From: a bacterium
Lineage (GTDB): Bacteria > Eisenbacteria > RBG-16-71-46 > CAIMUX01
DNA length: 64,000 bases
Reading direction: 5' to 3'
NCBI GenBank assembly: GCA_030431975.1
Contig: JAUIHP010000006.1
Coordinates: 124,001-188,000, forward strand
The notes under the pieces were generated by a model. The model was given only the letters and a program-made list of their open reading frames with translations. It was not told where the DNA came from and did no database searches. Positions 2,334 to 52,094 of the stretch are shown piece by piece (positions within the stretch are counted from its first letter, which is position 1; each line of letters starts with the position of its first letter). A program made the position numbers and the translations under genes.

Positions 2334-5300
2334 CTAGTTCATGACTACGAGGCGTAGTGTCCGTTCGAGCGAACCGACTCGGAAACGAGCCAGGTAGACT
2401 CCCGCGGGAACGGACTCACCCGAAGTGTCCCGTCCATCCCACGTCGCCCGGACGGCACCGTTCGAAGCCGGAACGGCAAAATCGCGAACGCGTCTTCCAG
2501 TCGGATCGTAAATCCCAATCCCGACGGTTCCTTCCACCTCCAATGCCATGGAGAGATCTGTTTCGAAGACGAAGGGGTTCGGCGTCGCCACCGGTTCATT
2601 CAGTCGAAGCTCCAGCGGCGGGATCTCGTCCGGAATCGAGTCCGTCTTCGTCACGACGAAACGGAGGCTCATGTTCTCGCCGATGGGCTGTAAGCGGACG
2701 GCAGACGGAATGGAAACAGGCTCGGTCCGTCGCCGCTCCCATTGCGTGACGAAAGCCCGAGCGTCCGCCGGGATACTTCCGGTGAAGTCGATCTCGACCG
2801 ATTCCGTCGGATCGAGTGCGGTCAGGGTCAGATCCCAGACGAGGACGTCCTCATCCGCCATGTAACGATATGCGTAGGCTCCGTCGGCCCCGAGAATTCC
2901 GAGGTTGAGTCCAACGCTCGCAGGCACCGGGGGGGCATGCCGATCCAGGCTCTCGTCGTTCTGAGAGAGTGCCCCCATCCGGAGCTGCGTCGAGCTTCGA
3001 TCGATCTGCCGGGCCTGTGCGCGGACCTGCCACAGAGGAAGCGGAGGAAGGTCGTCGACAGAGAACGGATCGGCCTCCGGATCGATGAGGAGCTGAACGC
3101 CTGCGGCATCGTCTGTCGATTGTGTGGCGACGAAGTAGCCTTGAAACGGTTGCAGCGAACTGACCGGCTCGAGCGCGGTGCCGTTCCAACCCCAGACCGC
3201 TGTTTCCAAACCCGGCTCGAGTCCGGTCAGGAAAGGACGAACGCCAGCCTCAGTCCGGACGGATAGCGCGGCCACCGGAATCGACGTCTGGAACGGATTG
3301 GCGATCTGGTGCCAACGAACCGCCTCTCCCGCGGGAAGTTCGATCTCATGAAGAGACGCAAGTCCCTGCCCGCTCCATCGTGCCTCGTAGGCGACGGACG
3401 ATTGCACCCAAACACCTTGATCGATGGCGATCGCCTGGGGCTCCGCATAACGATTCTCGACGGTCGACCACGAAAGAATCTGCGCACTGCCTTCACTTCG
3501 CAGAGCATCGAGAAACTCCGCCGAGTCGCTCGTGACGACTCCCGCCCCGATCAGATGGTTCCGTCCGGCCACGACCTGCAGGGACGGTTCGGGATCGATG
3601 ACTTTCGTACGCAGGAGGACGTCGCATCCCGCGACATTGAGCGGACAGATCCCCTCGCCCGCCTGAGTGGGGAGCACTGCCAACTCCCATTCCATCGACT
3701 GATTGGGTCCCAGCGCAAAGTCCGCCGTGCCGAAAGCAATAGAGTAGGGAGCACAGAGTTCCAGCCGACCTTGAAGGACTCCGCCACCTGCATTCCGAAG
3801 GTTGACGCGGCGGGTCACGCGTTCCCCGATTGCGACCAAACCGAAGTCAACCTCATCCTGTTCGATCGCGCAAAGAGGCGGACGAGCATCGACGCCCGCC
3901 CCGAGAAGGTCGACGTCGGAGCAGAGTCCGTCTCCGAAGGAAAGTGCGCAGTCGAGTTCGCCCAGACGGTTCGGCTGGTATCGCAACGTCCAACTCAACT
4001 CGGCTCCGCCGTCCAGCCGGAACGCAGCATTGCCGACGACTTCGACTTCGGCGCAGTCCGGCCGTAGTTCACCAACAAGCACGCCGTTGCCATCATTGCG
4101 AACCGTGATCTGTTGTTCCGCGACGAATCCGACCTCGACGCTGCCGAAGTCGACGACCGAAGGCGTGACCAGACACCGTGCGTCGTTGCTGGAACCACCG
4201 CGACCGGTAAGCAGCACCGGCGCGCATCGCTCTCCCACGTTGATCGTGCAAAACACTTCCGTGGGAGTTTGCGGAAGGAAGCGGATGGGGAAGTCCTGCT
4301 CTTCACGGGCCCCGAGAGAGTAGGATGTCGAGCCCACGATCTGGAACTCCGGGCAATCCTCCAAATCGAGGGTTCCTTCGAGGCGCCCTCCTCCGGCGTT
4401 CTTGACGGTGACGACCCGCTCCGCGCTCAAGCCGATCGGAACCACGCCGAAGTCGATGTCTCTTCCAGACAACTGACAGATGGGCTCCGGGGCCGGCTCT
4501 CCCCGCCCGCGGGCGGAAACGGAAAGACACTCACTGTCACCCACTTCAATTCGGCATTGGATCGGACCAGTGGACTGCGGTTGGAAGACGACACGAACCT
4601 TACGACTTTCGCCCGGCTCCAGGTTCACGTCCGACTCGCCGTCGAAACCGAAGTCCGGACAGGAGGATTGCAGCATTCCCCTTAGCTCGCCGGTCCCGAC
4701 GTTGCGAAGAACGAAGTCCAGCTCGGTCGACTCACCAACGATGACGCCGCCGAAGTCGAGGACCGAGGGCTGCGCCTCGCACTCGGGCGAAGGCGGATCG
4801 ACGCCGCGCCCCGTCGTCGAAACGACTCGGCAGAGTTCGCTTCCGAAGTCGAGATCGCAGAACTGAGATCCGGCAACACTTGGAACGAACTCAACGGTAA
4901 GTTGCGCACTCTCTCCGGCGCTGAGTTGAAACGCCGAGTCACCGATGAGTTGAAAGTCCGGGCACCCAAGCTGGAGAGCGCCGGAGAGGGTGCTGCCACC
5001 CGTATTTGCCACCGTCAGCGTTCGCCTCGCGGTCGCTCCTACTTCGACATCTCCGAAGTCCAAACTCGTGGGCTCGATCGCGCACTCCGGTGCCCGCACG
5101 GCTTCACCCGACAGATCCACCGTTCCGCACTCGCCGTCGCCGAACGTCGCGACGCACTGCTGAAGACCTTCCACGGAGGGTTCCATTCGGATCGTAAACT
5201 GGCGCGACTCGCCCGGCAGCAAACTGTAGGCCGAGGGTCCGATCCCGAAGAAGCCGATGCAGTCGGGTAGCTGAAGCGAACCTTCCAGCACGTTCGGACT

Positions 5301-8300
5301 GAGGTTCTGCAGAGTCACGATCTGATCGACAACCTGACCAATCTCGACAACTCCAAACTCCAGCCGGGACGGCGTCACCTGGCAGAGGACGGCATCAGAC
5401 GTCGTGGCCAGAAGCTGCACCGAAGAGCACAGAACTCCCAGGTCGACGTTGCAGATGTAATCCCCGGGGAGTTCCGACTGGAACTCGAACTCGACGAGGC
5501 GGCTTTCGTCCGCGCCCAGATCAAAGACGTCGGATCCCAACAGTTGAAAGTAGTCGCACCCATCCAGCACGATCTCACCCTGAAGCTGCGCCGCGCCGAC
5601 GTTGCGAAGAACGAACCCCGAACGAATCGGCTCCCCTTTGCGAGCCGTCCCAAAATCCACGATCTCGGCAGAGACCTGACACTCGGGTTGTGGAGGCGGC
5701 AGTAACTCGCCACTCAGCGTGAGCGAACCACAGCCCGAGCCGAGGCCGACGGCGCAGGTGTACGGGCCCGGCTCTTCCGGAGCGAAGGAGAAGGTGAACG
5801 TCACAGATTCTCCGCCCGGCAGTTCGTAGCCGGGCATGCCTTGCAGCGCGAAGGGACCACACCCCGGCTCGATGCTGCCCTCGAGCGTCGAACCTCCGGT
5901 GTTGGTCAGTGTGACGCTGAGTTCCGGGGTCACACCCCATTCGACTTCACCAAAATCCAGCGTCACGGCGTCGACCTCACAGTCCCCCGGCGCAGTCCCC
6001 GTCCCGCTTGCGTTCACCGACTCGCAAACGTCCGTTCCGAGGACGATCTCGCACATGTAGTCGGTGACCTCCTGCGGGAAGAACAGCACCGTGAACTCTG
6101 CACTCTCACCGGCTCCGAGCTCCGCCTGCGCCTCTCCGAGAAGCAGGAACCCGTCGCACGAGAGGGAAGGTTCGACCTGCAACAACCCTCCACCCTCGTT
6201 CGAAACCGTAAAGGCTGCCTGGACCTCCTCGCCGACCAGCACACTACCGAAGTCCAACGATGAAGCGTCGACGACGCAGGCCGGATCCTCGGTCGCGCTT
6301 CCTTCCGTCGACAGCGCGGAACACCCCGCCCCAGGAAAGACAAGACAGTCGAGGACACCTTCTTCGGTCGGTGTGTACAGAATCTCGATGTTGATCGACT
6401 CGCCGGGTCCCAAGTCATAGCTCGCAGCCCCGGAAACCGTCAGCTCGGGGCAGTCCGTCGATACGGTTCCGTCCAGTCGCCCGCCTCCGGTGTTGCTGAC
6501 ACGGAAGCTTCGTGTCCGACTTTCACCGACTTCGACCTCACCGAAACTCAGCGTCGCTGGGAAAACGTCACACTCGGGGACGGCAGTTCCGACACCTCGC
6601 GCCTCCAGTTCGGCACAATCCGAGTTTCCCAGGTCGATCGTGCAAATCTGCTCCGTTGCACTCTGCGGCTGAAAGAGGACTGTGAAGAGCTTTTCTTCTC
6701 CCGCACCGAGATCGAAGTCGGGAGAGGCTTCGGCGATCTGGAAAGCACTGCAGACCTCGGAGACCAGCCCCGTGAGTCGGCCGCCGCCTTCATTGCGAAC
6801 GTTGAACTGGAGCGACGCGGCCTCGCCGACCTGCACGTCGCCGAAGTCCAGGGACGATGGGGTGACGACACACGCCGGAGGCGGATCTCCGATCCCTTGG
6901 ACGGAAACATCGCAGTCCGTCCCCGACGCGATAAGGCAATCAAAGATCCCGGTCTGGTCCGGCGCGAAGACGACGACGATGGTGTCGGATTGGCCAGCGC
7001 CCAACGAGAATGCAAAGGCCTCCGCCTCGATGCGGAACTCGTCACAATCCTCGATCCAGTTACCCGCGAGGATACCTTCCCCGTCATTGAAGATGCGCAC
7101 CTCGGCGCTGGCTTCCGTACCCAAAAGGACCGGACCGAACTGAAGCTCAGCCGGCTCGACGCGACAGGCCGGAGGAAGGAATCCGGATCCCTGGGCCACA
7201 AGGTCAACGCAAGTTTCCGACCCGAGATCGATGACACACGAAGCCGGGTCGGAACCGGTGGGAGCAAAGCGAAGATCAAAGGACGTCTCTTCGTCCGGGC
7301 CCAACGAGTATCCGAGGTCGGACTGCAGAAAGAAGAACTCCGGGCAGTTCAGACTCAAGGTGCCCTCGAGCAGAGCACCGCCCAGATTGCGGATGGTGAA
7401 CGACAAGTCCCGTTGTGAACCGACGGCCACCTCCCCGAAGTCGAGAAGGTCCGGGGTGACTTCGCATTGCGCAGGCTCAAAAGCGTTTCCGGTGACGACA
7501 ACCGCGCAATCCGTCGTCGATCCAATGGAACACGAGACCGGGCCCGGCGCCGTGGGAGAGAAACGAACGAGAAAGCTGTCCGCCTCGCCCGCCGGAACAT
7601 CGAACGTAAGATCTCCCAGCACGTCGAAGTCACCACAACCGGCGTCGAAGGTCCCTGAGAGGGATCCGGTTCCGACGTTCGAAAGGACAAAGACCCGGGT
7701 ACTGTCCACTCCCAATGGTACGGCGCCGAAGACGAGCGTATCGGGCTCGACCACGCAAATGGGTTGCCCCACTCCGTCACCGGTGAGAGTGATGTCGCTA
7801 CAGGAGTCGGAACCGGTTTCGAGGAGACATTGCGTCGGCCCCTCCGTACTCGGAGCGTAGAAGATCTGGAAGCTCGCAGAGTCACCGGGCGAGACGGAAT
7901 AGATGCCGTCTTCCGGCTCGAAGCGCATGTCCGGACAACCAGAAAGTCCGAGCTGACCGTCGAGGACAGCAGTACCCGTGTTGCGAATGGTGAGGGTGCG
8001 CCCGGTTTCCTCACCGAGGTACACGGGCCCGAACGAGATCTGCTCGGGTACTCCACAGATTGGGGCGAAAACAGAAGTCCCCTGCACCGTGACATCAGGG
8101 CAAAGGTCAGAGCCGGTCTCGATCTGACAGTTCAGATCGAACTCACTCTGTGGGTTGAACTCGATGACAAAGACCCGCCCTTCTCCACCGCCGAGACTGT
8201 AGGTTGGATCTCCAACGATGTTCAGATCCGAACAATCTGTGGAAAGCGTTCCCGTGAGGAGGCTGCCCCCGGTGTTTTGCACCAACAGCGCCAACGGCTC

Positions 8301-8735
8301 GGTCTCGCCGACCTCTACATACCCGTAGTCGAGCTGCGTGGGAGTCACCAGGCATTCCGGCGCCAAGACACCACTGCCACGCGCGCCGACAGAACCGCAC
8401 AGAGGTTGATCCAGGTCGACAAGACAGAACTTGAGTCCGGTCGATTGCGGCGCGAAACGCACCCGCACGGCCATCGCCTCGCCTTCGAGAAGAGCGAAGT
8501 CCTGCTCTCCATCGACGAGTGAGAAGTCGTCGCAGTCGAGTGAGGTTCGCCCTTCGAGGAGCCCCCGCCCTTCGTTGCGAACGACGAACTCCAATGTGTC
8601 GGCCTGACCGATCTCCAGGATTCCGAAGACGAGTTCCGGAGGGCTGATATCGCAGTCCTGAGCGTCGGCAGTCGAGGCGAAAAAACAGAGGCCGAGTAGT
8701 AGCAGGCCCGCTACCGAGCGAAGCAATTTGGACAC
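2334..8735 (-). CDS. Giant secreted protein with 17 choice-of-anchor-D repeats and FlgD-like C-terminus
   Basis: A 2133-residue exported protein. GTG start at 8735 with GGAG seven bases upstream, then a clean signal peptide ending STADA|QD. I count 17 tandem units of roughly 95 residues, each opening with a Cys and a pattern like C.V.P..LDFG.V.VG, followed by L.NTGGG.L.G, a second Cys before the middle, and a third in a 'C.I..G...C' tail. These are choice-of-anchor-D/ASH-type Ig folds; the regular Cys spacing suggests a disulphide in each unit. After the repeats (from about 1640) is a region common in FCB secreted proteins (AGRNHLIGAGVV onwards). The C-terminus (about 2050-2133) has PNPF..., IGIYDPTGRRVRDF, WDGRDTSGESVPAGVYLARF, a FlgD-like Ig domain often linked to surface sorting. 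Function probably adhesive or structural; no enzyme motif seen. The long repeat block makes assembly collapse or recombination possible. Confidence 0.88.
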   Translation of the reverse strand: MSKLLRSVAGLLLLGLCFFASTADAQDCDISPPELVFGILEIGQADTLEFVVRNEGRGLLEGRTSLDCDDFSLVDGEQDFALLEGEAMAVRVRFAPQSTGLKFCLVDLDQPLCGSVGARGSGVLAPECLVTPTQLDYGYVEVGETEPLALLVQNTGGSLLTGTLSTDCSDLNIVGDPTYSLGGGEGRVFVIEFNPQSEFDLNCQIETGSDLCPDVTVQGTSVFAPICGVPEQISFGPVYLGEETGRTLTIRNTGTAVLDGQLGLSGCPDMRFEPEDGIYSVSPGDSASFQIFYAPSTEGPTQCLLETGSDSCSDITLTGDGVGQPICVVEPDTLVFGAVPLGVDSTRVFVLSNVGTGSLSGTFDAGCGDFDVLGDLTFDVPAGEADSFLVRFSPTAPGPVSCSIGSTTDCAVVVTGNAFEPAQCEVTPDLLDFGEVAVGSQRDLSFTIRNLGGALLEGTLSLNCPEFFFLQSDLGYSLGPDEETSFDLRFAPTGSDPASCVIDLGSETCVDLVAQGSGFLPPACRVEPAELQFGPVLLGTEASAEVRIFNDGEGILAGNWIEDCDEFRIEAEAFAFSLGAGQSDTIVVVFAPDQTGIFDCLIASGTDCDVSVQGIGDPPPACVVTPSSLDFGDVQVGEAASLQFNVRNEGGGRLTGLVSEVCSAFQIAEASPDFDLGAGEEKLFTVLFQPQSATEQICTIDLGNSDCAELEARGVGTAVPECDVFPATLSFGEVEVGESRTRSFRVSNTGGGRLDGTVSTDCPELTVSGAASYDLGPGESINIEILYTPTEEGVLDCLVFPGAGCSALSTEGSATEDPACVVDASSLDFGSVLVGEEVQAAFTVSNEGGGLLQVEPSLSCDGFLLLGEAQAELGAGESAEFTVLFFPQEVTDYMCEIVLGTDVCESVNASGTGTAPGDCEVDAVTLDFGEVEWGVTPELSVTLTNTGGSTLEGSIEPGCGPFALQGMPGYELPGGESVTFTFSFAPEEPGPYTCAVGLGSGCGSLTLSGELLPPPQPECQVSAEIVDFGTARKGEPIRSGFVLRNVGAAQLQGEIVLDGCDYFQLLGSDVFDLGADESRLVEFEFQSELPGDYICNVDLGVLCSSVQLLATTSDAVLCQVTPSRLEFGVVEIGQVVDQIVTLQNLSPNVLEGSLQLPDCIGFFGIGPSAYSLLPGESRQFTIRMEPSVEGLQQCVATFGDGECGTVDLSGEAVRAPECAIEPTSLDFGDVEVGATARRTLTVANTGGSTLSGALQLGCPDFQLIGDSAFQLSAGESAQLTVEFVPSVAGSQFCDLDFGSELCRVVSTTGRGVDPPSPECEAQPSVLDFGGVIVGESTELDFVLRNVGTGELRGMLQSSCPDFGFDGESDVNLEPGESRKVRVVFQPQSTGPIQCRIEVGDSECLSVSARGRGEPAPEPICQLSGRDIDFGVVPIGLSAERVVTVKNAGGGRLEGTLDLEDCPEFQIVGSTSYSLGAREEQDFPIRFLPQTPTEVFCTINVGERCAPVLLTGRGGSSNDARCLVTPSVVDFGSVEVGFVAEQQITVRNDGNGVLVGELRPDCAEVEVVGNAAFRLDGGAELSWTLRYQPNRLGELDCALSFGDGLCSDVDLLGAGVDARPPLCAIEQDEVDFGLVAIGERVTRRVNLRNAGGGVLQGRLELCAPYSIAFGTADFALGPNQSMEWELAVLPTQAGEGICPLNVAGCDVLLRTKVIDPEPSLQVVAGRNHLIGAGVVTSDSAEFLDALRSEGSAQILSWSTVENRYAEPQAIAIDQGVWVQSSVAYEARWSGQGLASLHEIELPAGEAVRWHQIANPFQTSIPVAALSVRTEAGVRPFLTGLEPGLETAVWGWNGTALEPVSSLQPFQGYFVATQSTDDAAGVQLLIDPEADPFSVDDLPPLPLWQVRAQARQIDRSSTQLRMGALSQNDESLDRHAPPVPASVGLNLGILGADGAYAYRYMADEDVLVWDLTLTALDPTESVEIDFTGSIPADARAFVTQWERRRTEPVSIPSAVRLQPIGENMSLRFVVTKTDSIPDEIPPLELRLNEPVATPNPFVFETDLSMALEVEGTVGIGIYDPTGRRVRDFAVPASNGAVRATWDGRDTSGESVPAGVYLARFRVGSLERTLRLVVMN

Positions 8736-8887
8736 GCGGTACTCCGAAAGGCGGCAGCGAAATCATGCGCGGTTGTGGGCAAACACGGGTTCAGAGCGTA
8801 AGACCCCGACAGCGGAAAGGTCAAGGCGACGCACCCGCCTCAATGCGTACAAATGTCCGCCATAAAGTTCTCCCGGGCGGATGGCCG

Positions 8888-9388
8888 ATGACTAACCTAA
8901 TGTCGGATGGAGCCGAACAGACTGCTCGCGTGGAGGGCGCGGAGGGCGAGGTGGAGTCGCCGGTCGATCGACGTCGTATTCCGACGCCGATCCTCTCCCG
9001 TTTCACCTTGTGGGGACGGCGAACCGTCAACTCCCATCCCGGAGCCCCCAGACGGAACTACTACGTCGACCGAACCGACGGGACGTTCCGGTCAGTGGCC
9101 CTCGGTGTCTGCATCTTCATCGCCATCGACGGTTTCGCGACGCTGCAAATCGTGTCCCACGGGGGCGGCGAGGCCAATCCCCTCATGGCCTGGGTTCTGA
9201 ACCATAGCTGGCAACTGTTCCTCGCCGTCAAAATCGCCGCGGCCATCAGCGCCCTGGTCCTGCTCCATTCCCACGGAAGGTTCCCGATCATCCGGAAGGT
9301 GGGCTTCTTCCTTCTCGCCGTGTACGGCGCCGTGGTCCTCTACCACCTGTACCTGCTGCTTCACATCGCAGCGGCCCACCTTAGTTAG
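8888..9388 (+). CDS. DUF5658-like small membrane protein
   Basis: Inner-membrane protein of 166 residues if started at the ATG at 8888; in-frame ATGs at 8843 and 8900 are alternatives and no start has a strong ribosome site. A charged cytoplasmic N-terminus of about 65 residues precedes three hydrophobic segments (about 68-88, 107-126 and 137-158). The core FIAIDGFATLQIV..GGGEANPLM and the following KIAAAISALVLL match the DUF5658 pattern (a D..T/L....G..E.NP.M signature followed by a K at the start of the second helix). The biochemical role of that family is not known. The gene is divergent from the giant secreted protein and its last four bases overlap the end of the convergent HAD phosphatase gene. 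Confidence 0.7.
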   Translation: MTNLMSDGAEQTARVEGAEGEVESPVDRRRIPTPILSRFTLWGRRTVNSHPGAPRRNYYVDRTDGTFRSVALGVCIFIAIDGFATLQIVSHGGGEANPLMAWVLNHSWQLFLAVKIAAAISALVLLHSHGRFPIIRKVGFFLLAVYGAVVLYHLYLLLHIAAAHLS

Positions 9389-10059
9389 CGGCCGGGGTAG
9401 GAAGACCGCGGGCGGAAGCGATAGAGCAAGCGTTCGAAAGTCTGGCTGGCCTTGACCGCAATGGGAAACGTATCTCCCCGCCATGCCGGAACTTTGACCG
9501 AACGAACTCCGGCCAGGTTGGCGGATGCGACATCGGTCAGGTACTGATCCCCGACCATCAGCCCATGTTCCGGTTCGACATCGAGAACACGGAGAGCCTC
9601 ACGCAGCAAGTCGCCATCCGGTTTGCGAACCGTAAAGCCTCCCGAAGAAAGGATTCGCGCGACTTCTTCCGGGCCCGGGTCGTCGAGTCCACTTTTCAGC
9701 ACACGGTAGCGTCGGTGTCCCTCCGCAGTTTGATACCCGCGTAGCGTCGGCCACTCGGGAAACATCGTTCCCAGCCGAACAAAGCGATCTTCTCCGCAAT
9801 TGGAAAGGACGGCCTGGACCACTCCACACTCTGACAATGCGTTCACAGTGGGAAGGAGAGCGGGATCAATCGCAGAACCGTGATAGGACATGAGGGTGCC
9901 GTCGACGTCCCAGATGATTCCGCGGATCTGCTCTCGTTCGACGAACTCCGGTGTGATGGATCGAATGTCGGGAAAGACAAAGGTCGGCTCGAGGCGATGG
10001 ACCAGCTTCTTCAACCGGGGCAGCGACTGTTTCGCCGTGGTCAGCCAGTCTCCGTTCAC
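9385..10059 (-). CDS. YqeG-like HAD-IIIA phosphatase
   Basis: A 224-residue cytoplasmic HAD-superfamily phosphatase. Motif I is IIWDVDGTL (nucleophile D51, general acid D53), motif II is the Ser in VLSNC, motif III the Lys in VRKPDGDLL, and motif IV is MVGDQYLTDVASANLAGV. The GDQ..TDV..AN..G sequence is the signature of the YqeG group (HAD-IIIA without a large cap). Some YqeG relatives are phosphatidylglycerophosphate phosphatases, but substrate cannot be read from the sequence. The start is GTG at 10059; the STAS gene ends 28 bases upstream, so it is the last gene of the moaB-led operon. Its 3' end overlaps the convergent DUF5658 gene by four bases. Confidence 0.85.
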   Translation of the reverse strand: MNGDWLTTAKQSLPRLKKLVHRLEPTFVFPDIRSITPEFVEREQIRGIIWDVDGTLMSYHGSAIDPALLPTVNALSECGVVQAVLSNCGEDRFVRLGTMFPEWPTLRGYQTAEGHRRYRVLKSGLDDPGPEEVARILSSGGFTVRKPDGDLLREALRVLDVEPEHGLMVGDQYLTDVASANLAGVRSVKVPAWRGDTFPIAVKASQTFERLLYRFRPRSSYPGR

Positions 10060-10087
10060 GATCCCGAGCCCGCTGCGTAGGAACCGT

Positions 10088-10429
10088 TCAAGACGAGATG
10101 GACGCAGCCGCTGCGGCGCGGTCTTTCACGATCTCGAAGACGGTATCGAGTTTGGTGTGCGCAAGTACGGTTCGAACCTGTGGCTGGATTCCCGTGAAAA
10201 GGATTCGAATCCCGGCTCTCCTCGCCGCTTTGTAAGCTTCAACGAGCATCCCGACGCCCATCGAGGTCGTGAGCCGAACTCCGATCAGGTCGATGACGAC
10301 GGGAGTCCCGTGTTCACGGGCAAGGCGCGCGACCTCATGAGGGAGTTTCTCCGCATCGGTGTCCAGGTCACCGTTCAGTTCCAACGCGACGTAGGCCTCT
10401 TCCTCGTGAACGATCAACTCCAATGCCAT
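10088..10429 (-). CDS. STAS-domain anti-sigma factor antagonist
   Basis: A 113-residue single STAS domain. The core VVIDLIGVRLTTSMGVGMLV matches the SpoIIAA-type motif, in which the Ser/Thr after the second strand (here T55/S56) is the site phosphorylated by an RsbW/SpoIIAB-type kinase. The rest (EAYKAARRAGIRILFTGIQ) is the usual helix and strand of the fold. Such proteins bind an anti-sigma kinase when unphosphorylated and free the sigma factor; related STAS proteins work in stressosomes or phospholipid-transport complexes. No partner kinase or PP2C phosphatase lies in the window, so the pathway is open. ATG at 10429 follows GGGGCGC. It sits between DUF3052 (gap 84 bases) and the YqeG-like gene (gap 28). 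Confidence 0.85.
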   Translation of the reverse strand: MALELIVHEEEAYVALELNGDLDTDAEKLPHEVARLAREHGTPVVIDLIGVRLTTSMGVGMLVEAYKAARRAGIRILFTGIQPQVRTVLAHTKLDTVFEIVKDRAAAAASISS

Positions 10430-10513
10430 GCGCCCCAGCCTTACGCCTCTTCGTTGGTGTCGGTGAATCTCAAACCGGGAATACTAGAGCAGAAGCGGCG
10501 TCCGCAGCCAGCT

Positions 10514-10927
10514 TCAACTGCGTCGCCGCGCAAAGCGGTGACCGGACCAGGTGGCGTCCACAGCGCAAACCTTGATATCGACAAGACCCGCCGCAAGTCC
10601 CGCCTCGCGGACCTGTCCCCCGCCGACGTCACTCTCCAGTTCGGAGCCCTTCTTTGGCCAGAAGATCCAGAGTCCACCGTCACCCAACGACGGGAGGAGC
10701 GGCTCGATGTCCGCGAGTTCCTTGGCGTGGCGGACGAAGAGGAAGATCTGGTCGGCCCGGGGGCCGCGTCGCCGTAGGAAACGGGTGTCTTCGGGAAGAG
10801 GTTCCAACAGGTCGAGAAAGCCTTGCGGAGGACGACGGAGAAGAATGGTCGTACCGGGCTTGATTCCCAGCTTCTTTGGCAGCGGCGTTCCGGAATATCC
10901 GGCGGGATTGTTTCGGGCGGGACTCAA
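10514..10927 (-). CDS. DUF3052 family protein
   Basis: About 137 residues. The N-terminal AGYSGTPLPKKLGIKPGTT and the C-terminal GLVDIKVCAVDATWSGHRF are characteristic of DUF3052 proteins, small cytoplasmic proteins of unknown biochemical function. I chose a TTG start at 10927 because it overlaps the stop of the preceding GNAT gene as TTGA, the same coupling style used elsewhere in this operon, and places the family's conserved AGYSGTPL near the N-terminus as is usual. An ATG at 10978 would add 17 residues that overlap the GNAT gene and look non-homologous. The family often occurs near acetyltransferases or metabolite-repair genes, but its role here is unknown. Confidence 0.75.
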   Translation of the reverse strand: MSPARNNPAGYSGTPLPKKLGIKPGTTILLRRPPQGFLDLLEPLPEDTRFLRRRGPRADQIFLFVRHAKELADIEPLLPSLGDGGLWIFWPKKGSELESDVGGGQVREAGLAAGLVDIKVCAVDATWSGHRFARRRS

Positions 10928-11511
10928 GAGATCCGCGAGTTCCAGTCCTCGCGCGTCAAAACGGAGAGCACGCCACAACCGCTCGAGAACGTGACTCCGG
11001 AAACCAGGATATTGCGAGCGACTTCGACGAAACCGAGGTCACGATGAAGTGCGAGTGAGACCTCGTTCTGTGAGTCCGCAAAGTAGAAGACCCGGCCCGC
11101 TCTCTCGAGAACCCAACGGACTCGCGCCTCCGTCAGTCGACGCCCCACCCGGCGCCTCCGGTAGCGCGGATCAACGACGATGCCGGACAGGTACCAGCCG
11201 GCCGGAGGTGTCCGGTACGGGCTACCGGACGGCGGTGTCACGACACGACTCTTGGCCACGCCGACGATTCCGGTGTCGGACTCCGCAACCAGGAGCTGAC
11301 CAATTCCCTGGGTTTGCCGCTCCAGCTGTTGTCGATGAAGGCGAAGCTGCCGGGACGGACGGTCCCTCTCCCGCTCTGCCATGAGGACCGAGATCGGGCC
11401 CAGATCCGTCTCGTCTGCCGGACGCACGGTCACCGGAAGAGGCGGATGAGGCTCTTCGACCACTTGGAACGCGGCGAACTCGGATCTCGTTTCGATCATG
11501 CTCGGGATCAT
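10924..11511 (-). CDS. GNAT family N-acetyltransferase
   Basis: A 195-residue acetyltransferase of the GNAT fold. The acetyl-CoA binding loop is visible as LSGIVVDPRYRRRRVGRRL (the R..G.G/A-type pyrophosphate loop, here RRRRVG), followed by the helix LTEARVRWVLERA and the terminal strand with ALHRDLGFVEVAR. A proline-rich N-terminus precedes the catalytic domain. ATG at 11511 is used; a second ATG (MIETRSEF) lies four codons in, and neither has a strong ribosome site. The gene starts 17 bases after the GNAT-YkgJ fusion and its stop overlaps the DUF3052 start. Substrate is unknown. Confidence 0.82.
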   Translation of the reverse strand: MIPSMIETRSEFAAFQVVEEPHPPLPVTVRPADETDLGPISVLMAERERDRPSRQLRLHRQQLERQTQGIGQLLVAESDTGIVGVAKSRVVTPPSGSPYRTPPAGWYLSGIVVDPRYRRRRVGRRLTEARVRWVLERAGRVFYFADSQNEVSLALHRDLGFVEVARNILVSGVTFSSGCGVLSVLTREDWNSRIS

Positions 11512-11528
11512 AGCGGATCGGATCCCGG

Positions 11529-12521
11529 TCAGTCCTGCGGCGGTTCTTTCGAATCGCGAAAGAGGCTGCGCAAGGCGACGCGCTGCCCGGGCGGTCCGAA
11601 AGCGGCCTGAAGGGCTGCGAGGCGATCTTCGATGGGACCGAGAGTCCAGCAGTCCGACTCCGGAAGCGTCTCGACCGGAGGACCCTCTTCCTCATTGAGC
11701 GGGCAGATGTCCCGAAACTCCGCGACCTCTCCACGATCCGTTTCGTCCAGCCACCGGAGGGGAAGCCCCTGCGTCCGGCAGACGTACGGTCGATCGGAGT
11801 AGATCCGACAGGCGCCCTGCGCATCCAGAAACGCGCACCCACCCACGGGACCCGCCGCTTCTCTTTCAAGAAGGGTGCGTTGACGACGACGGATGTTCTC
11901 GGCCTCGATCTCGAAGACCCGTAAGTCATCCTGACAGCACGAGGCGCAACCGCGTCGACACTGCAGGCGATCGCTCAACTTCTCATGCAATGAACCGGCA
12001 CTCTGGTCAACCTCTGCATAGAGTTCCTGAAGTGCGAGTAGGGGCGAGCGCAGTGGGCCGTGACGAAGGGATTGTACGAGGATGAGACAAGGGTTGGCCT
12101 CGCCCCAAAGTTGATTCTCCTCCAGCGGAAGGAATCCCAGCCGCAGATAGAACTCGCGAGTGGCGGCGTAGTTTTCGTCCGGCCGGCTGGGGCCGAGAGT
12201 CTTGACCTGAAGGAACTCCGTGGTGGGCGCGACCAGAGTTCGAACCGACTCTTCCACCAGTCGCCGCCCCCATCCGCGTCCGTGCTGATCGCGTCGCACG
12301 GCCAGGCAGTGAATCTCCGCAGAGCTGGGATTGTGTTGGCGTAGGCTGAGGAATCCGACGTTCTCACCATCCTGCTGCGCCATCAACGTCGGCAACTCGG
12401 TCGTTGCACGCGCGTAGTCGACAAGGGCGCTTTCGATTCCGAACCATTCGGGAAGCCCACGAAGCAGCTGCTCGCAAGCCCGTTCGTCACCGGGACGGAA
12501 AGGCCGAACGACTTGTGTCAT
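11529..12521 (-). CDS. GNAT acetyltransferase fused to a YkgJ-type Cys cluster domain
   Basis: A 330-residue two-domain protein. Residues 1-150 are a GNAT domain (AEIHCLAVRRDQHGRGWGRRLVEESVR is the acetyl-CoA loop; FYLRLGFLPLEE is the final strand). Residues about 180-310 are a YkgJ/UPF0153-type putative metal or Fe-S domain: CRRGCASCCQDDLRVF, then CAFLDAQGACRIYSDRPYVCR, the familiar 'C...GC..CC' and 'C.FL....C.IY..RP..CR' layout, plus two later Cys. YkgJ domains are thought to bind zinc or Fe-S by their conserved Cys; function is not established. The ATG at 12521 overlaps the stop of the upstream membrane-protein gene as ATGA. The frame continues far upstream, but that is antisense-like sequence overlapping neighbouring genes. 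A joined GNAT-YkgJ protein is an unusual arrangement. Confidence 0.82.
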   Translation of the reverse strand: MTQVVRPFRPGDERACEQLLRGLPEWFGIESALVDYARATTELPTLMAQQDGENVGFLSLRQHNPSSAEIHCLAVRRDQHGRGWGRRLVEESVRTLVAPTTEFLQVKTLGPSRPDENYAATREFYLRLGFLPLEENQLWGEANPCLILVQSLRHGPLRSPLLALQELYAEVDQSAGSLHEKLSDRLQCRRGCASCCQDDLRVFEIEAENIRRRQRTLLEREAAGPVGGCAFLDAQGACRIYSDRPYVCRTQGLPLRWLDETDRGEVAEFRDICPLNEEEGPPVETLPESDCWTLGPIEDRLAALQAAFGPPGQRVALRSLFRDSKEPPQD

Positions 12522-12850
12522 CCCGACCGAACCCGTCCGCGGACGCGATACTTTTCGCGTAGCCATAGATAGAGGGGTAAGCCGGCCGAGACGCCCAGGA
12601 ACAGCGAAACGATAATCGCCCATCCGCAGAACGGGACGCGTCTCTTCGGACCGTCCGTAGCAATGAAAAGGATCGTGGCGACGACCCCGAGTCCGACGTT
12701 GGCCAAAAGGAAGAGCACGAGTCCATCGGTCGCGTACGCTCGCAAAGCGCCGAGGTTTCCGCCGGTCCCCATCAACCAAACGACGACGGCCGCAACGGAA
12801 CAAGCCAGCCCTACAAAGAAGAGCACTGCATATCCGGAGCGCAGGGTCAC
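12518..12850 (-). CDS. Small three-helix membrane protein
   Basis: A 110-residue predicted inner-membrane protein with three hydrophobic segments (about 8-28, 42-62 and 75-96) and a basic C-terminal tail (REKYRVRGRVRSG). No recognised family. It is translationally coupled on both sides: its GTG start at 12850 overlaps the double-GNAT stop as GTGA, and its stop overlaps the ATG of the GNAT-YkgJ gene as ATGA. This tight packing supports it being a real gene despite its small size and lack of a name. It might anchor or serve the acetyltransferases around it, but that is only an inference from position. Confidence 0.72.
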   Translation of the reverse strand: MTLRSGYAVLFFVGLACSVAAVVVWLMGTGGNLGALRAYATDGLVLFLLANVGLGVVATILFIATDGPKRRVPFCGWAIIVSLFLGVSAGLPLYLWLREKYRVRGRVRSG

Positions 12851-13920
12851 GATCGGTTCCCGTCGAACTCCAACCGCAGAACGACTTCGCCTTCGTCGAC
12901 GTCACCGGTCGGGCGGAACCCGAGCGTTTCATAGAACGCCTGCGGACTCCCCTCGCCCGGAACCGCGCTGGTCTCGAGGCAGGTCGCCGCCGGGCGCGTC
13001 TTGACGTGATCGACCATAAGACGGATCGCCTTCTCTCCGTAGCCCAAACCCTGGAACCGATGGTCGATCATGAAGCGCCAGAGGAAGTACTCCGGCTTCT
13101 CCGCGTCGTCGTGCAGCATGAGGAAGCCGACCGGCGTGTCATCGGCACAAACTCCCCGAAACCAGGCGTGCTCCGAGAAGTGGGCCTGCGCGATCGAGAC
13201 CGAGTTGTCGGCAACGAAGTGTTTCTGGTCGGGTCTTACCGAGAGACGGAGGTAGTTGCCGAGGGTATCTTCGTCGATCTCTCTAAGCGTCACTGTCGAG
13301 TCACGGGATACGGAGATCTGCGCCTGAATCGGCGGCGCCGCTTCGGGTGACGGAGCTTCGTCCGTTGCTGCGTTCGTGGCCCCTTCGCTCTCAGTCGGCG
13401 CGTTCGTGGACGGCGCATTGCCGACCGACCCGCTCCCAGCGCTCACCGACGGTGAGTTCCGAGAAGAACCGTCATCCGTCGGCCCGTCTGCGATGAGACG
13501 TCGACCCATGCCGACGACATCGTCCGACTTGTATCCAAGCTTCTCGTAGAAATCGAGTACTGCCGTATTGCCGCGTCGAACCTGAAGGTTGACCTTCGGA
13601 CATCCCTGGGCCTTCAGTGCCTTTTCCGCCATCTCCATGAGACGCCGGCCGATTCCTCTGCGTCGATAATCCGGATCGACCGCAACGTAGTAAACCCAAC
13701 CCCGATGTCCGTCGTAGCCGGCCATGACCGATCCCACCGGTCGGTCTCCGTCGAGAGCGACCTGAAAGTGCTCGGGTTGCACCTGAAGTTTCCGCCGCAT
13801 GTCCTTGGCCGGATCGTTCCAGGGTCGGGTCAGTTCACAGCGGTCCCAAAGCCTTCGTACTCCGGCTTCATCGGCAAGGCGGAAGCTGCGGTACTCGAGA
13901 GTCGATACGGACTCGATCAT
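12847..13920 (-). CDS. Tandem double-GNAT acetyltransferase
   Basis: A 357-residue protein with two GNAT domains. The first (about 1-145) resembles YpeA-type enzymes: WVYYVAVDPDYRRRGIGRRL for acetyl-CoA, then NLQVRRGNTAVLDFYEKLGY. A disordered linker rich in Ser, Ala, Glu and Pro (about 150-205) follows. The second (about 210-357) resembles spermidine/BltD-like GNATs: LREIDEDTLGNYLRL near its start, FMIDHRFQGLGYGEKAIRL as the acetyl-CoA loop and FYETLGFRPTG near the end. Start chosen at ATG 13920, overlapping the moaB stop as ATGA; sequence upstream in this frame is moaB in another frame. The end is coupled to the small membrane gene (GTGA). Substrates unknown; YpeA-like and polyamine-type GNATs act on small amines or protein N-termini. 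Confidence 0.83.
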   Translation of the reverse strand: MIESVSTLEYRSFRLADEAGVRRLWDRCELTRPWNDPAKDMRRKLQVQPEHFQVALDGDRPVGSVMAGYDGHRGWVYYVAVDPDYRRRGIGRRLMEMAEKALKAQGCPKVNLQVRRGNTAVLDFYEKLGYKSDDVVGMGRRLIADGPTDDGSSRNSPSVSAGSGSVGNAPSTNAPTESEGATNAATDEAPSPEAAPPIQAQISVSRDSTVTLREIDEDTLGNYLRLSVRPDQKHFVADNSVSIAQAHFSEHAWFRGVCADDTPVGFLMLHDDAEKPEYFLWRFMIDHRFQGLGYGEKAIRLMVDHVKTRPAATCLETSAVPGEGSPQAFYETLGFRPTGDVDEGEVVLRLEFDGNRS

Positions 13921-14435
13921 GACTCGCGCAGCCTCGGCATGAGTTCGACCAGGCCACAAGGTTTCGTTCTCGAGTCGAGCTGCTTCGACAGTAGTCCGTC
14001 CCAGCCTTGCGCGCAGGCGTGAGCCGATCCGGGAAGACAGAACACATAGGTTCCGTTGGCGACTCCGGCCAGCGCACGCGAGTGAAGCGCACTGGTTCCG
14101 ATTTCCTGAAATGACATCCAGCGAAACGCCTCGCCGAACCCGTCGATGATCTTGTCGAGCAACGGCGCAACTGCGTCCGGCGTTCCGTCCCGGCCGGTCA
14201 CGCCGGTACCGCCCGTGGTCACGATGACGTCGCATTCCGAGTCCGCGATCCACTGCGAGACGGCAGCCCGAACCTGATAGATGTCGTCCTTGACGATCCT
14301 TCTTTCATGAAGAATGTGGCCCGCGCCTTCGATGCGCTCTGCCAGGAGAGAGCCCGACTTGTCGGTCTCCAGGTTGCGGGAGTCGGAGACCGTCAACAAG
14401 GCAATGCGAACGGATTGGGGGACCTCAGTATTCAT
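13917..14435 (-). CDS. moaB: Molybdenum cofactor biosynthesis protein MoaB/Mog
   Basis: A 172-residue MoaB/Mog protein, which adenylylates molybdopterin (Mog/MogA activity) in molybdenum-cofactor synthesis, or is an inactive paralogue in some bacteria. Family marks are [19 protein letters not shown] at the N-terminus, [20 protein letters not shown] in the middle (the GGTG..RD.T nucleotide/molybdopterin loop) and [19 protein letters not shown] near the end (the PGS motif). ATG at 14435 has AGGAGG with seven bases spacing. It heads a minus-strand operon of overlapping genes (13917 to 9385). No other moa/moe genes are in the window. Confidence 0.92.
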
Positions 14436-14756
14436 GGCTTCCTCCTCGCCTCAACATGGCCGAATCCAGCCCGAACGTGGACTTTCGCCACGTGAGCCGC
14501 GAACTCGGCAGCCTTTGCACCCGGTCGATCTTTCCCGGCCCCAGCGTCTTCGGCGACGCCTCGCGAAATCGGCCGGCGCCCACCGACGTACATCCCTACA
14601 TCACAGTGGGATACCCGACTCCTCGCAAGGGATGGCCCGGAGCCTCCGCACCTGGCGGGGTGGGTAAACCCTTCCGAGCGAGGGACGCCCGTCAGGCACG
14701 GATCTTTCTATGAACAGTCGACAGACGCAACCAGCAAGACACCACAGGGGGAAACC
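14436..14756. other. Divergent intergenic region between moaB and the histidine kinase
   Basis: Some 320 bases between two outward-reading genes, so it must hold promoters for both. I see no convincing -35/-10 pair, no clear palindromic operator and no coding-like frame. The last bases before 14757 (AGGGGGAAACC) form the ribosome site of the kinase. Confidence 0.5.
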
Positions 14757-16745
14757 GTGGTTCGAAGAAATCGAGTTCTCGGCATCAAGGCCCGCTTCAT
14801 CACGGCCTACTCCGTCTCGCTGCTCCTATGCTGTCTGCTTCTGACAGCGGTCCTGACCTGGCAACTTCGGAGCACGCTCTACGACGAGTTACGCATGCGT
14901 GGTTTGACCATTGCCGAGATCCTCGTCGATGCGTCCGCGCTCGCCCTCGAGAACGAAGCTCCTGTCGATCCGGAATGCACAGAAACCGCCAACGGCGCCA
15001 TGGTCCACCCCGAGAACGATCGGCTGCAGCAGAAGGCTCTGACCCTCATCGACGATGCAGACGTCGAGTACGTCATCATTCAGGATCAGACCGGCCAGGT
15101 TCACTTCGAGGTCAGTTCACCCAGTGTCGACCTCGGCAGTGTGCGTTCCGTTCTGGTCGCGGAAGCCTGGGATCTGAGCGCGTCCCATGTTTTCGAAGCG
15201 GCGGACGTCGACGGGAAGAGCCTGATCCACTTCGGCGTCCCCATTCCGAACGATGTAGGCACTGTCCGCGTCGGCATGTCGGGGGCGAGGCTGGCACGTG
15301 CCCTCGACCAGGCCTTCTGGACCAGTCTGATCCTTGGTATGGGAACACTGGTCGGAGGCGTCTTTCTTCTGATCTTCACGGCCCGATGGTCCCTCGCTCC
15401 TTTACGTGAGATGGCTCAGGCTACGCGCGCCATCGCTCAGGGTGATCTTTCCCAACGCGTCGAAGTTTCCTTTCAGGACGAAGTGGGAGAGCTGGCCCAG
15501 GCGTTCAATGAAATGTCCGAAAGCGTGGCCACGAGTCGACGGAAACTCGACGAGCAGTATCAGGAGTTACAGGCCTCCTACGCAGAGCTGCAAGAGGCCC
15601 AGAGCCGCCTCGCCCACTCTGAAGAAGCGCGGAAGGTCGATCGGCTTCGTACGGTGGGACAGATGGCCAGCGGGATCGCGCACAACTTCAACAACCTCAT
15701 GTCGGCCATCATCGGTCGTGTGCAGCTGCTCAAGCTGAAGTCCGAAACCGACCAGTTGAACCCGAGTGACCTGGCCCACAGCCTCGATGTCATCGAACGG
15801 GCCGGATTGGACGGAGCCGAAACCGTTCGGCGGATCCAGGAGTTCAGTCGCGGCGAGTCCCACGAAGGAATGTCCTCCGCCAATCTCAACGATCTCGTCC
15901 GGAGCGTCGTCGAGATCACGCAGCCTCGCTGGAAGGATCAGGTCGAGCAGGAGGGACACCGTATCGAGATCGATACGCAACTCTCCGACATGCCGAGCGT
16001 TCGCTGTGTGCCCTCTGAGCTTCGTGAGGTTCTGACCAACCTCATCTTCAACGCCATCGATGCCATGCCCGACGGCGGTGTCATCCGGATCGAGACACGA
16101 ACGGGCCTCGGTTTCGGAGAACTGCGCGTCAGCGACACCGGCGTCGGCATGTCCCGACAGGTTCTGGAGCGCGTCTTCGATCCATTCTTTACGACGAAGG
16201 GAGTCAAGGGAACCGGACTCGGACTCTCGACGGTCTACGGGATCATCAAGAGGCAGGGTGGCGAAATTTGGGCCGACTCGAAAGAAGGGAACGGCACGAC
16301 CTTCACCATCCGAGTTCCCTACGCGAAATCGAAACTACGTAGAGAGGAAGACGAGGGAATCATGGGAACGAAGGGTTACCGCATCCTGGTCGGCGACGAT
16401 GAAGACAACGTCAGAGAAACCCTGGTCGATCTGCTGCGGCTTCTCGGACATGAGGTGACGGAAGCTTCTTCGGGTCAGGGAACCCTGGACTCTTTCCAAC
16501 CGGATCGCTTCGACCTGATCATGACCGATCTCGGCATGCCCGATCTCAGCGGTTGGGAAGTCATTCAGGGGATTCGTGAACAGGACACTGCTGTTCCCAT
16601 CGTTCTGGCCACAGGTTGGGGAAGTCATCTCAACGCCGAAGACGCCCGGGAACGCGGCGCCACCCGAGTGCTTTCCAAGCCCTTCACGGTACAGAAAATC
16701 TCGTCATTGATCGCAGAGCTTCAGGGTGAGCTCGCCGCAGCGTGA
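14757..16745 (+). CDS. Hybrid sensor histidine kinase with C-terminal receiver domain
   Basis: A 662-residue membrane sensor kinase. GTG at 14757 follows AGGGGG. Transmembrane helix 1 is about 15-35, a periplasmic sensing domain spans about 36-185, helix 2 is about 187-209, then a HAMP domain (about 208-258) and a Gln/Glu-rich coiled coil (about 259-295). The H-box is MASGIAHNFNNLMSAI with phosphoacceptor H309. The ATPase domain has the N-box NLIFNAIDAMPDGG (N432), DTGVGM and TKGVKGTGLGLS. The receiver begins near 537 and has the acidic pair in GDDED, phosphoacceptor D591 in MTDLGMPDLSG and K641 in LSKPF. No separate DNA-binding output is fused, so the receiver probably passes phosphate on or modulates the kinase. 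Its stop overlaps a GTG of the TPR frame downstream, and the two genes are probably co-transcribed. Confidence 0.92.
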   Translation: MVRRNRVLGIKARFITAYSVSLLLCCLLLTAVLTWQLRSTLYDELRMRGLTIAEILVDASALALENEAPVDPECTETANGAMVHPENDRLQQKALTLIDDADVEYVIIQDQTGQVHFEVSSPSVDLGSVRSVLVAEAWDLSASHVFEAADVDGKSLIHFGVPIPNDVGTVRVGMSGARLARALDQAFWTSLILGMGTLVGGVFLLIFTARWSLAPLREMAQATRAIAQGDLSQRVEVSFQDEVGELAQAFNEMSESVATSRRKLDEQYQELQASYAELQEAQSRLAHSEEARKVDRLRTVGQMASGIAHNFNNLMSAIIGRVQLLKLKSETDQLNPSDLAHSLDVIERAGLDGAETVRRIQEFSRGESHEGMSSANLNDLVRSVVEITQPRWKDQVEQEGHRIEIDTQLSDMPSVRCVPSELREVLTNLIFNAIDAMPDGGVIRIETRTGLGFGELRVSDTGVGMSRQVLERVFDPFFTTKGVKGTGLGLSTVYGIIKRQGGEIWADSKEGNGTTFTIRVPYAKSKLRREEDEGIMGTKGYRILVGDDEDNVRETLVDLLRLLGHEVTEASSGQGTLDSFQPDRFDLIMTDLGMPDLSGWEVIQGIREQDTAVPIVLATGWGSHLNAEDARERGATRVLSKPFTVQKISSLIAELQGELAAA

Positions 16746-50141: not shown

Positions 50142-50687
50142 GTGTTCTACGACGAGATCGAGGACAAGCAGCGCGCCTTTATCGAAGAGCAGAAGATGTT
50201 CTTTGTCGCCACTGCTCACGTGAGCGGCCGCATCAACCTGTCGCCGAAGGGGCTGGACTGTTTTCGCGTCCTCTCTTCGAAGCGGGTACTCTATGCCGAC
50301 TACACCGGCAGCGGCAACGAGACGGCAGCGCATCTGCGGGCGGACGGCCGCATCACTTTCATGTTTTGCAGCTATGAACGAAATCCACTGATCCTTCGCC
50401 TCTACGGAACCGGCCGCTACGTGCGACCCGAAGACCCGGGGTTCGACGAGATGGCACGGGACATCTCTCCCCACTGGTCCGTCCGTCAGCTCATCGTCGC
50501 CGACATCACCTCCGTTCAGACCTCATGCGGATTTGGGGTACCGATGTATGACTTCGTCGGTGAGAGAGACACGTTGATTCAGGCCTCCGACAAGAAGGGA
50601 CGGGAAGGGATCGAATCCTACTGGTACGAGAAGAACTCCCGATCCATCGACGGCCTCCCCACCAGTATCGAACCGGCGCGCGAATGA
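50142..50687 (+). CDS. Pyridoxamine 5'-phosphate oxidase-family flavoprotein
   Basis: A 181-residue protein of the PNPOx-like split-barrel fold. Marks are KMFFVATAHVSGRINLSPKG (the typical 'F..TA...G..N.SPKG' opening), VLYADYTGSGNETAAHLRAD and RITFMFCSYERNPLILRLYG, the flavin-binding core. The fold is shared by FMN-dependent oxidoreductases, F420-binding proteins and haem-utilisation proteins; cofactor and substrate are not known. GTG at 50142 has GGAGGT 11 bases upstream. Its stop overlaps the ATG of the GNAT gene (ATGA), so they are coupled. It is not PdxH itself. Confidence 0.85.
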   Translation: MFYDEIEDKQRAFIEEQKMFFVATAHVSGRINLSPKGLDCFRVLSSKRVLYADYTGSGNETAAHLRADGRITFMFCSYERNPLILRLYGTGRYVRPEDPGFDEMARDISPHWSVRQLIVADITSVQTSCGFGVPMYDFVGERDTLIQASDKKGREGIESYWYEKNSRSIDGLPTSIEPARE

Positions 50688-51169
50688 GTTCCAAGAAACC
50701 GTTCGAACTCGAGATCCGGGAGATGACTGACGACGATCGAGTCACCGTCGCAGAGCTCAGCGTCCATGTCGACCAGGCTCCCTGGGTTCCGCCGATCACC
50801 GAATCGCTTCAACTGCTCGACCGAACCGACGAGGTTCAGGGCGTGCTTTTCGAAGTCGATGGCACGGTCGTTGGGTTCTGTCTCGTCACCGACAGTCAAA
50901 GCGAGACGGCCAGCATCGGTGGATTCCTCATTGGCGCCCAGTATCAAGGCAACGGCTACGGCAGCGTCGCGGTCGGTAAGGTCTGTGCTTTCATTTTTGA
51001 AGGTCACCCCAAGGTGAACACGATTCTCTTGACCGTGCGGGAAGGGAACGAGGCTGCCCGGCGCCTGTACGAGCGGGCAGGGTTCGAGACGACGGAGACG
51101 TACCATCACGGAGAGCGGGTCTTTGCACTCGACAAGTCCGTGTGGGCCCGGCGGCAGGGAGATCGCTAG
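50684..51169 (+). CDS. GNAT family N-acetyltransferase
   Basis: A 161-residue GNAT enzyme. The acetyl-CoA segment is IGGFLIGAQYQGNGYGSVAV (Q.NGYG in place of R..G.G), followed by NTILLTVREGNEAARRLYER and GFETTETYHHGERVFAL, the closing beta strand and helix. Its GTVVGFCLVTDSQSETASIG shows the usual strand-3/4 region. The ATG overlaps the stop of the PPOX gene. It ends 7 bases from the convergent larger GNAT gene. Substrate unknown. Confidence 0.83.
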   Translation: MSSKKPFELEIREMTDDDRVTVAELSVHVDQAPWVPPITESLQLLDRTDEVQGVLFEVDGTVVGFCLVTDSQSETASIGGFLIGAQYQGNGYGSVAVGKVCAFIFEGHPKVNTILLTVREGNEAARRLYERAGFETTETYHHGERVFALDKSVWARRQGDR

Positions 51170-52004: not shown

Positions 52005-52094
52005 ACGCTCCGTTTCGCTGCTTGGCGGACGATCCAAGACTGCAGGTCCGAAAACAGCCAGCCGACTGTGCCGGCTCGTGGCATCATACGTCTC

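Follow-up and report, generated by a model that had tools for sequence, protein, structure and literature searches.

Eight same-strand genes ending in an old yqeG-like gene: a probable lineage-private coupled unit in an Eisenbacteria genome

Gene content and anatomy of the unit

We analysed a 64,000-nucleotide stretch of DNA, hereafter the window (positions 124,001 to 188,000 of contig JAUIHP010000006.1, assembly GCA_030431975.1, from a bacterium of the Eisenbacteria lineage), which carries a run of eight same-strand genes on the minus strand from position 14435 to 9385. In reading order these are moaB, double GNAT, DUF2834, GNAT-YkgJ, GNAT, DUF3052-like, STAS and YqeG-like, all present as a preliminary description of this DNA had placed them. 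We consider it likely that they constitute a translationally coupled unit of ordinary enzymes, private to this lineage and added upstream of an old yqeG, which shares expression rather than a pathway. The genes are as follows.

13917..14435, minus: moaB, 172 residues; full-length match over the curated TIGR02667 equivalog score (246.7 bits, cut-off 222.4)
12847..13920, minus: double GNAT, 357 residues; two GNAT domains, the first of YpeA type (PRK03624)
12518..12850, minus: DUF2834 small membrane protein, 110 residues, GTG start; PF11196 39.4 bits (cut-off 22.9)
11529..12521, minus: GNAT-YkgJ fusion, 330 residues; PF13508/PF00583 and PF03692
10924..11511, minus: single GNAT, 195 residues; PF00583 46.2 bits
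10514..10927, minus: DUF3052-like protein, 137 residues, TTG start; PF11253 21.5 bits, under the gathering score of 22.7 and over profile positions 71-124 of 125 only
10088..10429, minus: STAS-domain protein of the anti-sigma-factor-antagonist type, 113 residues; PF01740 50.9 bits, and TIGR00377 56.3 bits, over its curated superfamily score of 53.45
9385..10059, minus: YqeG-like HAD phosphatase, 224 residues, GTG start; TIGR01668 64.3 bits, under the curated score of 89.1

The shortfall against TIGR01668 leads us to speak of a YqeG-like HAD protein, and the DUF3052-like protein is likely to be a distant relative of PF11253 rather than a filed member. The seven junctions read as follows.

moaB/double GNAT: -4 nt, ATGA
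double GNAT/DUF2834: -4 nt, GTGA
DUF2834/GNAT-YkgJ: -4 nt, ATGA
GNAT-YkgJ/GNAT: +17 nt; none of the ATG, GTG or TTG starts gives an overlap
GNAT/DUF3052-like: -4 nt, TTGA
DUF3052-like/STAS: +84 nt
STAS/YqeG-like: +28 nt

The ATGA, GTGA and TTGA overlaps reported earlier for moaB, double GNAT, the membrane protein and GNAT-YkgJ, and for GNAT and DUF3052, were all seen as 4-nt stop/start overlaps. They account for four of the seven junctions; the other three do not overlap, and ‘eight-gene overlapping operon’ was too strong a term in this respect, while the idea of one coupled unit is well supported by the anatomy. A GAGGAGG lies directly 5' of the moaB start. Read by eye, the overlapped starts have no comparably clear ribosome-binding sequence, which fits translational coupling, and the overlaps would couple the translation of several neighbours. 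Such overlaps are not rare in the window, as they occur in 4 of 25 other same-strand pairs given by a crude gene caller, one that set the DUF2834 start wrongly and, led astray by an antisense open reading frame, passed over DUF3052, STAS and YqeG.

Upstream the eight genes are bordered by a divergent histidine kinase gene from 14757 (HAMP, HisKA, HATPase_c and Response_reg by Pfam), and downstream by a convergent DUF5658 gene (Pfam match) whose end at 9388 overlaps the end of yqeG by 4 nt. The eight same-strand genes, the four stop/start overlaps, these divergent and convergent borders and the lack of promoter- or terminator-like signal above shuffles together argue for one coupled unit. It is likely to be a single transcription unit, whose start probably lies in the 321-nt gap that precedes moaB.

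In the region 8700-14900 a low-power scan limited to the sigma-70 type gave 0 promoter-like sites against 1.1 expected by chance, and a terminator scan, also of low power, gave 4 sites against 5.3 expected from shuffles. These counts speak, with little power either way, against the alternative that the genes are a mere same-strand run with at least two promoters, STAS and yqeG being for instance expressed apart from the upstream six. That alternative draws on the 84-nt gap before STAS and the 28 nt before yqeG, on a related genome in which yqeG stands alone (G002, see below), and on promoter types other than sigma-70, which the scan does not cover. We judge it unlikely, and retain the single coupled unit as the preferred reading.

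Two further candidates were rejected. A plus-strand open frame of 293 residues (9896-10777), antisense to DUF3052, STAS and yqeG, has no Pfam match, whereas the minus-strand genes have homologues, and it is most likely a shadow open reading frame. A recent foreign island was not indicated by base composition, the guanine-plus-cytosine fraction of the eight genes being 0.59-0.63 against 0.61 for the window. Scans of the window with Rfam (gathering threshold) and for tRNAs gave no matches.

Neighbourhood of the genes in other genomes

Our class search comprised 47 genomes including the window's own, none of the same genus and two of the same family, namely G001 (5% estimated contamination) and G002 (68% complete). 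G002 keeps the window order and orientation of yqeG, the DUF5658 gene and a repeat-protein gene, with identities of 51% over 215 residues, 51% over 107 and 37% over 938 respectively. Two small open reading frames, CrcB-like and DUF190-like as named from their translations, are inserted among them. Upstream of yqeG in G002 there is a divergent frame whose translation reads as flippase/glycosyltransferase-like, and none of the other seven unit genes was found there. Hence the yqeG end is old, and the other seven genes were either added in the window lineage or lost in G002. In the window the repeat protein occupies 2334-8735 on the minus strand; its 2133 residues show many similar repeats by eye, its relative in G002 lies in the same place, and its C-terminal ending is one that we take to be FlgD-like.

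Homologues of the unit's genes are scattered through the class. At E ≤ 0.001, own genome included, matches were found to moaB in 33 of the 47 genomes, to STAS in 40, to GNAT in 21, to DUF3052 in 20 and to GNAT-YkgJ in seven. YqeG matched in 18, near full length only in G002 and mostly as short HAD stretches in the others. The best class relative of the DUF3052-like protein (in G014) is 52% identical, and that of the single GNAT, by E-value, 40%.

We then read the surroundings of all class moaB and GNAT-YkgJ matches, and of the best loci only for double GNAT, GNAT, DUF3052, STAS and YqeG. Across the 252 non-own loci (1.81 Mb, some overlapping) tblastn placed no two non-GNAT families of the unit together, and in no case were the same families adjacent in separate lineages. 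Only one of these loci, L239 of G009, holds a non-GNAT family together with a GNAT; here more than 5 kb separate a MoaB-like match of 31% identity from a weak GNAT match. DUF2834 had no match in the 252 loci, and no separate search was made for it. A conserved gene neighbourhood, raised as a check with the preliminary description, did not emerge: among the loci read, which cover part of the matches, the eight-gene order was seen only in the window's own genome.

These comparisons suggest that the genes were brought together by shuffling in this lineage and do not form a conserved pathway. In the model that we favour, an old yqeG-like gene would have remained in its ancestral place beside DUF5658 and the repeat protein, and seven genes from unrelated sources would have come in upstream. 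The synteny and the scatter of homologues are observed; what we infer from them is the sequence of events, and that the seven genes were gained here and not lost in G002.

MoaB and the case for a shared pathway

The window's own genome has three PF00994 proteins, the window MoaB, a CinA-like and a MoeA-like protein, the last of these encoded on another contig, where a MoaC-like frame follows it (all names other than MoaB being read from translations). Besides the window MoaB no stand-alone protein of the MoaB/MogA family was found in that genome, which makes a role in molybdenum cofactor synthesis the plain reading; most likely it would serve this synthesis together with the MoeA and MoaC encoded elsewhere.

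The closest relatives found for this MoaB (55-66% identical) come from three genomes outside the class, G062, G063 and G067, whose loci are labelled Gemmatimonadetes, Latescibacteria and Alphaproteobacteria respectively, the proteins of the first two being practically one sequence. In a MoaB tree of 41 rows the window protein groups with these three (support 97/89 and 100/96) and no class row falls inside the group. Midpoint rooting puts 18 class rows of family f10 in one half with the window protein, and G001 and the window's order-mates in the opposite half. Mapped over the 32 class rows, the label has to change four times, and well supported branches make no fewer than two of these changes unavoidable. 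Either horizontal acquisition or differential loss would account for this position. None of the other seven families was found around moaB in the 15.6-19.9 kb stretches from these three genomes.

The four GNAT domains in three proteins counted in the preliminary description were borne out by the Pfam/NCBIfam domain scan, and they are four of the 37 Acetyltransf_1 domains of the genome. With 36 GNAT genes placed at random in 20,000 trials, three fell within eight consecutive genes in 3.0-3.4% of the trials and within four in 0.4-0.5%, assuming 5000 or 5500 genes and uncorrected for the choice of the GNAT family after it had been seen. The GNAT grouping is a mild excess over random placement. 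Elsewhere in the window a PNPOx-domain gene (50142-50687, plus) overlaps a further GNAT gene (50684-51169, plus) by 4 nt, and a gene for a 678-residue protein with a C-terminal GNAT (51177-53213, minus) converges on the latter.

Could the eight genes be one functional module? The GNATs would in that case modify a substrate or protein linked either to molybdenum cofactor synthesis or to an acetylated metabolite, while DUF3052, STAS and the phosphatase would act as regulators. Such a module is in keeping with the tight junctions that couple moaB with the double GNAT and GNAT with DUF3052, and with the GNAT clustering above random placement. However, no pair of these families is side by side in the other genomes read, the MoeA-like and MoaC-like genes lie elsewhere in the genome, and the closest relatives of moaB lack the other seven families nearby. 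We regard a single module as very improbable; a meaningful link between GNATs and moaB, which the earlier description had left unexplained, is not supported by the 252 loci, and nor is a conserved GNAT-moaB functional system.

Three points weigh against our preferred reading of a lineage-private unit with shared expression. With no same-genus member in the genome set, and with one same-family genome incomplete and the other carrying estimated contamination, conservation of the unit inside the genus would have escaped notice. For many loci the flanks were 1.5 kb, and several contigs were short, so that absence of partners is not proof. Finally, three GNAT genes within four are, as the trials above indicate, unlikely by random placement. 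With these points taken into account we still favour a model in which the eight genes share expression and not a pathway, and in which each of the three GNAT proteins most likely has a small-molecule or protein target of its own to acetylate.

The double GNAT protein

The double GNAT consists of a YpeA-like domain (residues ~1-146), a low-complexity linker (~147-205) and a GNAT domain like that of spermine/spermidine acetyltransferases (~206-354). Domain 1 scores 191.9 bits against the PRK03624 equivalog cut-off of 124 (profile 5-144 of 147). Among the 25 of 32 NCBIfam families listed, no polyamine family exceeded its cut-off. In a structural model the predicted local distance difference test score (pLDDT), taken by blocks, was 38-79 for residues 1-140, 25-41 for the linker (141-200) and 83-97 for residues 201-350; all 21 added rows of the model's alignment, including the YpeA-like L160 and L162, lay on domain 2, leaving domain 1 effectively alignment-free.

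Matches to the double GNAT occurred in 49 of 59 genomes, own included. Among the matches listed for these 59 genomes none but the window's own covered both domains, the nearest (in G033) beginning at residue 136. A scan of named genomes gave 65 loci, 42 rows of which include domain 2 (from cyanobacteria, Chloroflexi, Zixibacteriota, Gemmatimonadetes and others) and 23 only domain 1. Four of the 42 rows list residues of both domains, and all four were rejected as intact double GNATs. In L127, L128 and L130 the matches are separate pieces in different frames, with a weak GNAT downstream of a domain-2 homologue, and in L134 the match to both was a single stretch of 423 nt, not enough to encode two domains. 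Among the genomes searched, an intact double GNAT as judged by alignment is thus found only in the window's own genome.

The GNAT-YkgJ fusion

The GNAT-YkgJ protein has an N-terminal GNAT and a C-terminal CxxCxxCC domain, the latter scoring 36.6 bits against the PF03692 gathering score of 23; Pfam describes metal binding by this cysteine cluster as putative. Its single-sequence structural model was unusable (mean pLDDT 34.7). The nearest relative of the YkgJ half is in G001, a same-family genome of another genus, with 60% identity over 159 residues, and it too is C-terminal to a GNAT. The GNAT half of the G001 fusion matches Acetyltransf_3 best (69.4 bits), and pairwise BLASTP between the GNAT halves of the two fusions gave no significant alignment. 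Stand-alone relatives of the window GNAT half, 48-53% identical, were found in G003, G004 and G009; the one in G003 (L112:7599-8114) has a further GNAT gene (8928-9395) some 0.8 kb away.

An alignment search for YkgJ in 385 genomes, own included, matched at least 12 at 1e-8, only nine first-look candidates being scored in many of the genomes. The strongest relatives outside the family (G180, G091 and G371; 190-212 bits) are stand-alone proteins of 173-176 residues; seven weaker matches scored 44-63 bits, and the stand-alone state was read for the three strongest only. The window domain has the pattern RPYVCRTQGLPLRW and a GP-E-LQ-like tail in common with stand-alone YkgJ proteins from three distant genomes (L223:5869-6390, L224:5731-6261 and L225:5976-6503), by eye a distinct subfamily. 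No link of GNAT genes to these three was apparent by eye or by tblastn with the window GNATs.

None of 1055 matching plasmid records covered 80% of GNAT-YkgJ, and among the 15 listed only the GNAT half matches. None of 95 pattern matches in viral contigs was confirmed. Our literature search, confined to one library of papers, found none that brings CxxCxxCC together with an acetyltransferase, and none that treats a cysteine cluster along with GNAT, acetyltransferase and fusion; YkgJ was absent from the papers listed on GNAT acetyltransferases.

That one family holds two such proteins with unlike GNATs points to a fusion that arose twice, or else to a single replacement of the GNAT part. The two proteins also hint at a functional partnership between GNAT and cysteine cluster, a hint drawn from two proteins, one of them from the genome with estimated contamination. 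The shared cysteine domain, set against GNAT halves that do not align significantly, further allows the YkgJ cluster to be seen as a portable metal/redox-sensing module joined to GNATs more than once within this bacterial family, which would make the fusions metal/redox-gated enzymes; we put this forward tentatively and consider it rather doubtful. If the partnership is real it would offer a functional handle on the little-characterised YkgJ/CxxCxxCC proteins, and a possible metal/redox switch on acetylation. The fusion is the part of the unit most worth specialist follow-up.

Comparison with known systems

Taken as we read it, the unit would be a clear case of a private gene grouping, where a shared pathway cannot be read from tight start/stop coupling by itself. 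Its parts resemble known proteins and depart from them chiefly in what they are joined to. The window MoaB is a full-length match to the E. coli type (TIGR02667), and its best solved relatives by sequence are 1r2k and 1mkz, which we take to be structures of E. coli MoaB; unlike that type, the window moaB is coupled to a double GNAT and not to other moa genes.

Domain 1 of the double GNAT belongs with the YpeA family (PRK03624; 2pdo, 4qus, 4qvt), matching nearly the whole profile and aligning by Foldseek with the YpeA structures 2pdo and 4qus at 45-47% identity. Unlike them, it is followed in its chain by a linker, which the model shows as disordered, and then by a second GNAT from a different family. 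In part of a published source, ypeA appears in strain tables among expressed candidates (PMC6199490). Domain 2 has the fold of the Enterococcus faecalis spermine/spermidine N-acetyltransferase (9dsb/2fl4, 24% identity by Foldseek), but belongs to a separate and widespread family, which shows the pattern EYFLWRFM and GEGSP. As a whole the protein resembles the tandem GNAT proteins of the clavulanic acid pathway (2wpw/2wpx) in that a single chain carries two GNAT domains; the structural match shows 16-17% identity, and the window protein has a long linker.

Finally, the GNAT-YkgJ fusion carries the cysteine-cluster domain of the YkgJ/CxxCxxCC proteins (PF03692), but as the C-terminal part of a GNAT protein, whereas the three strongest relatives from outside the family have it as a stand-alone protein.

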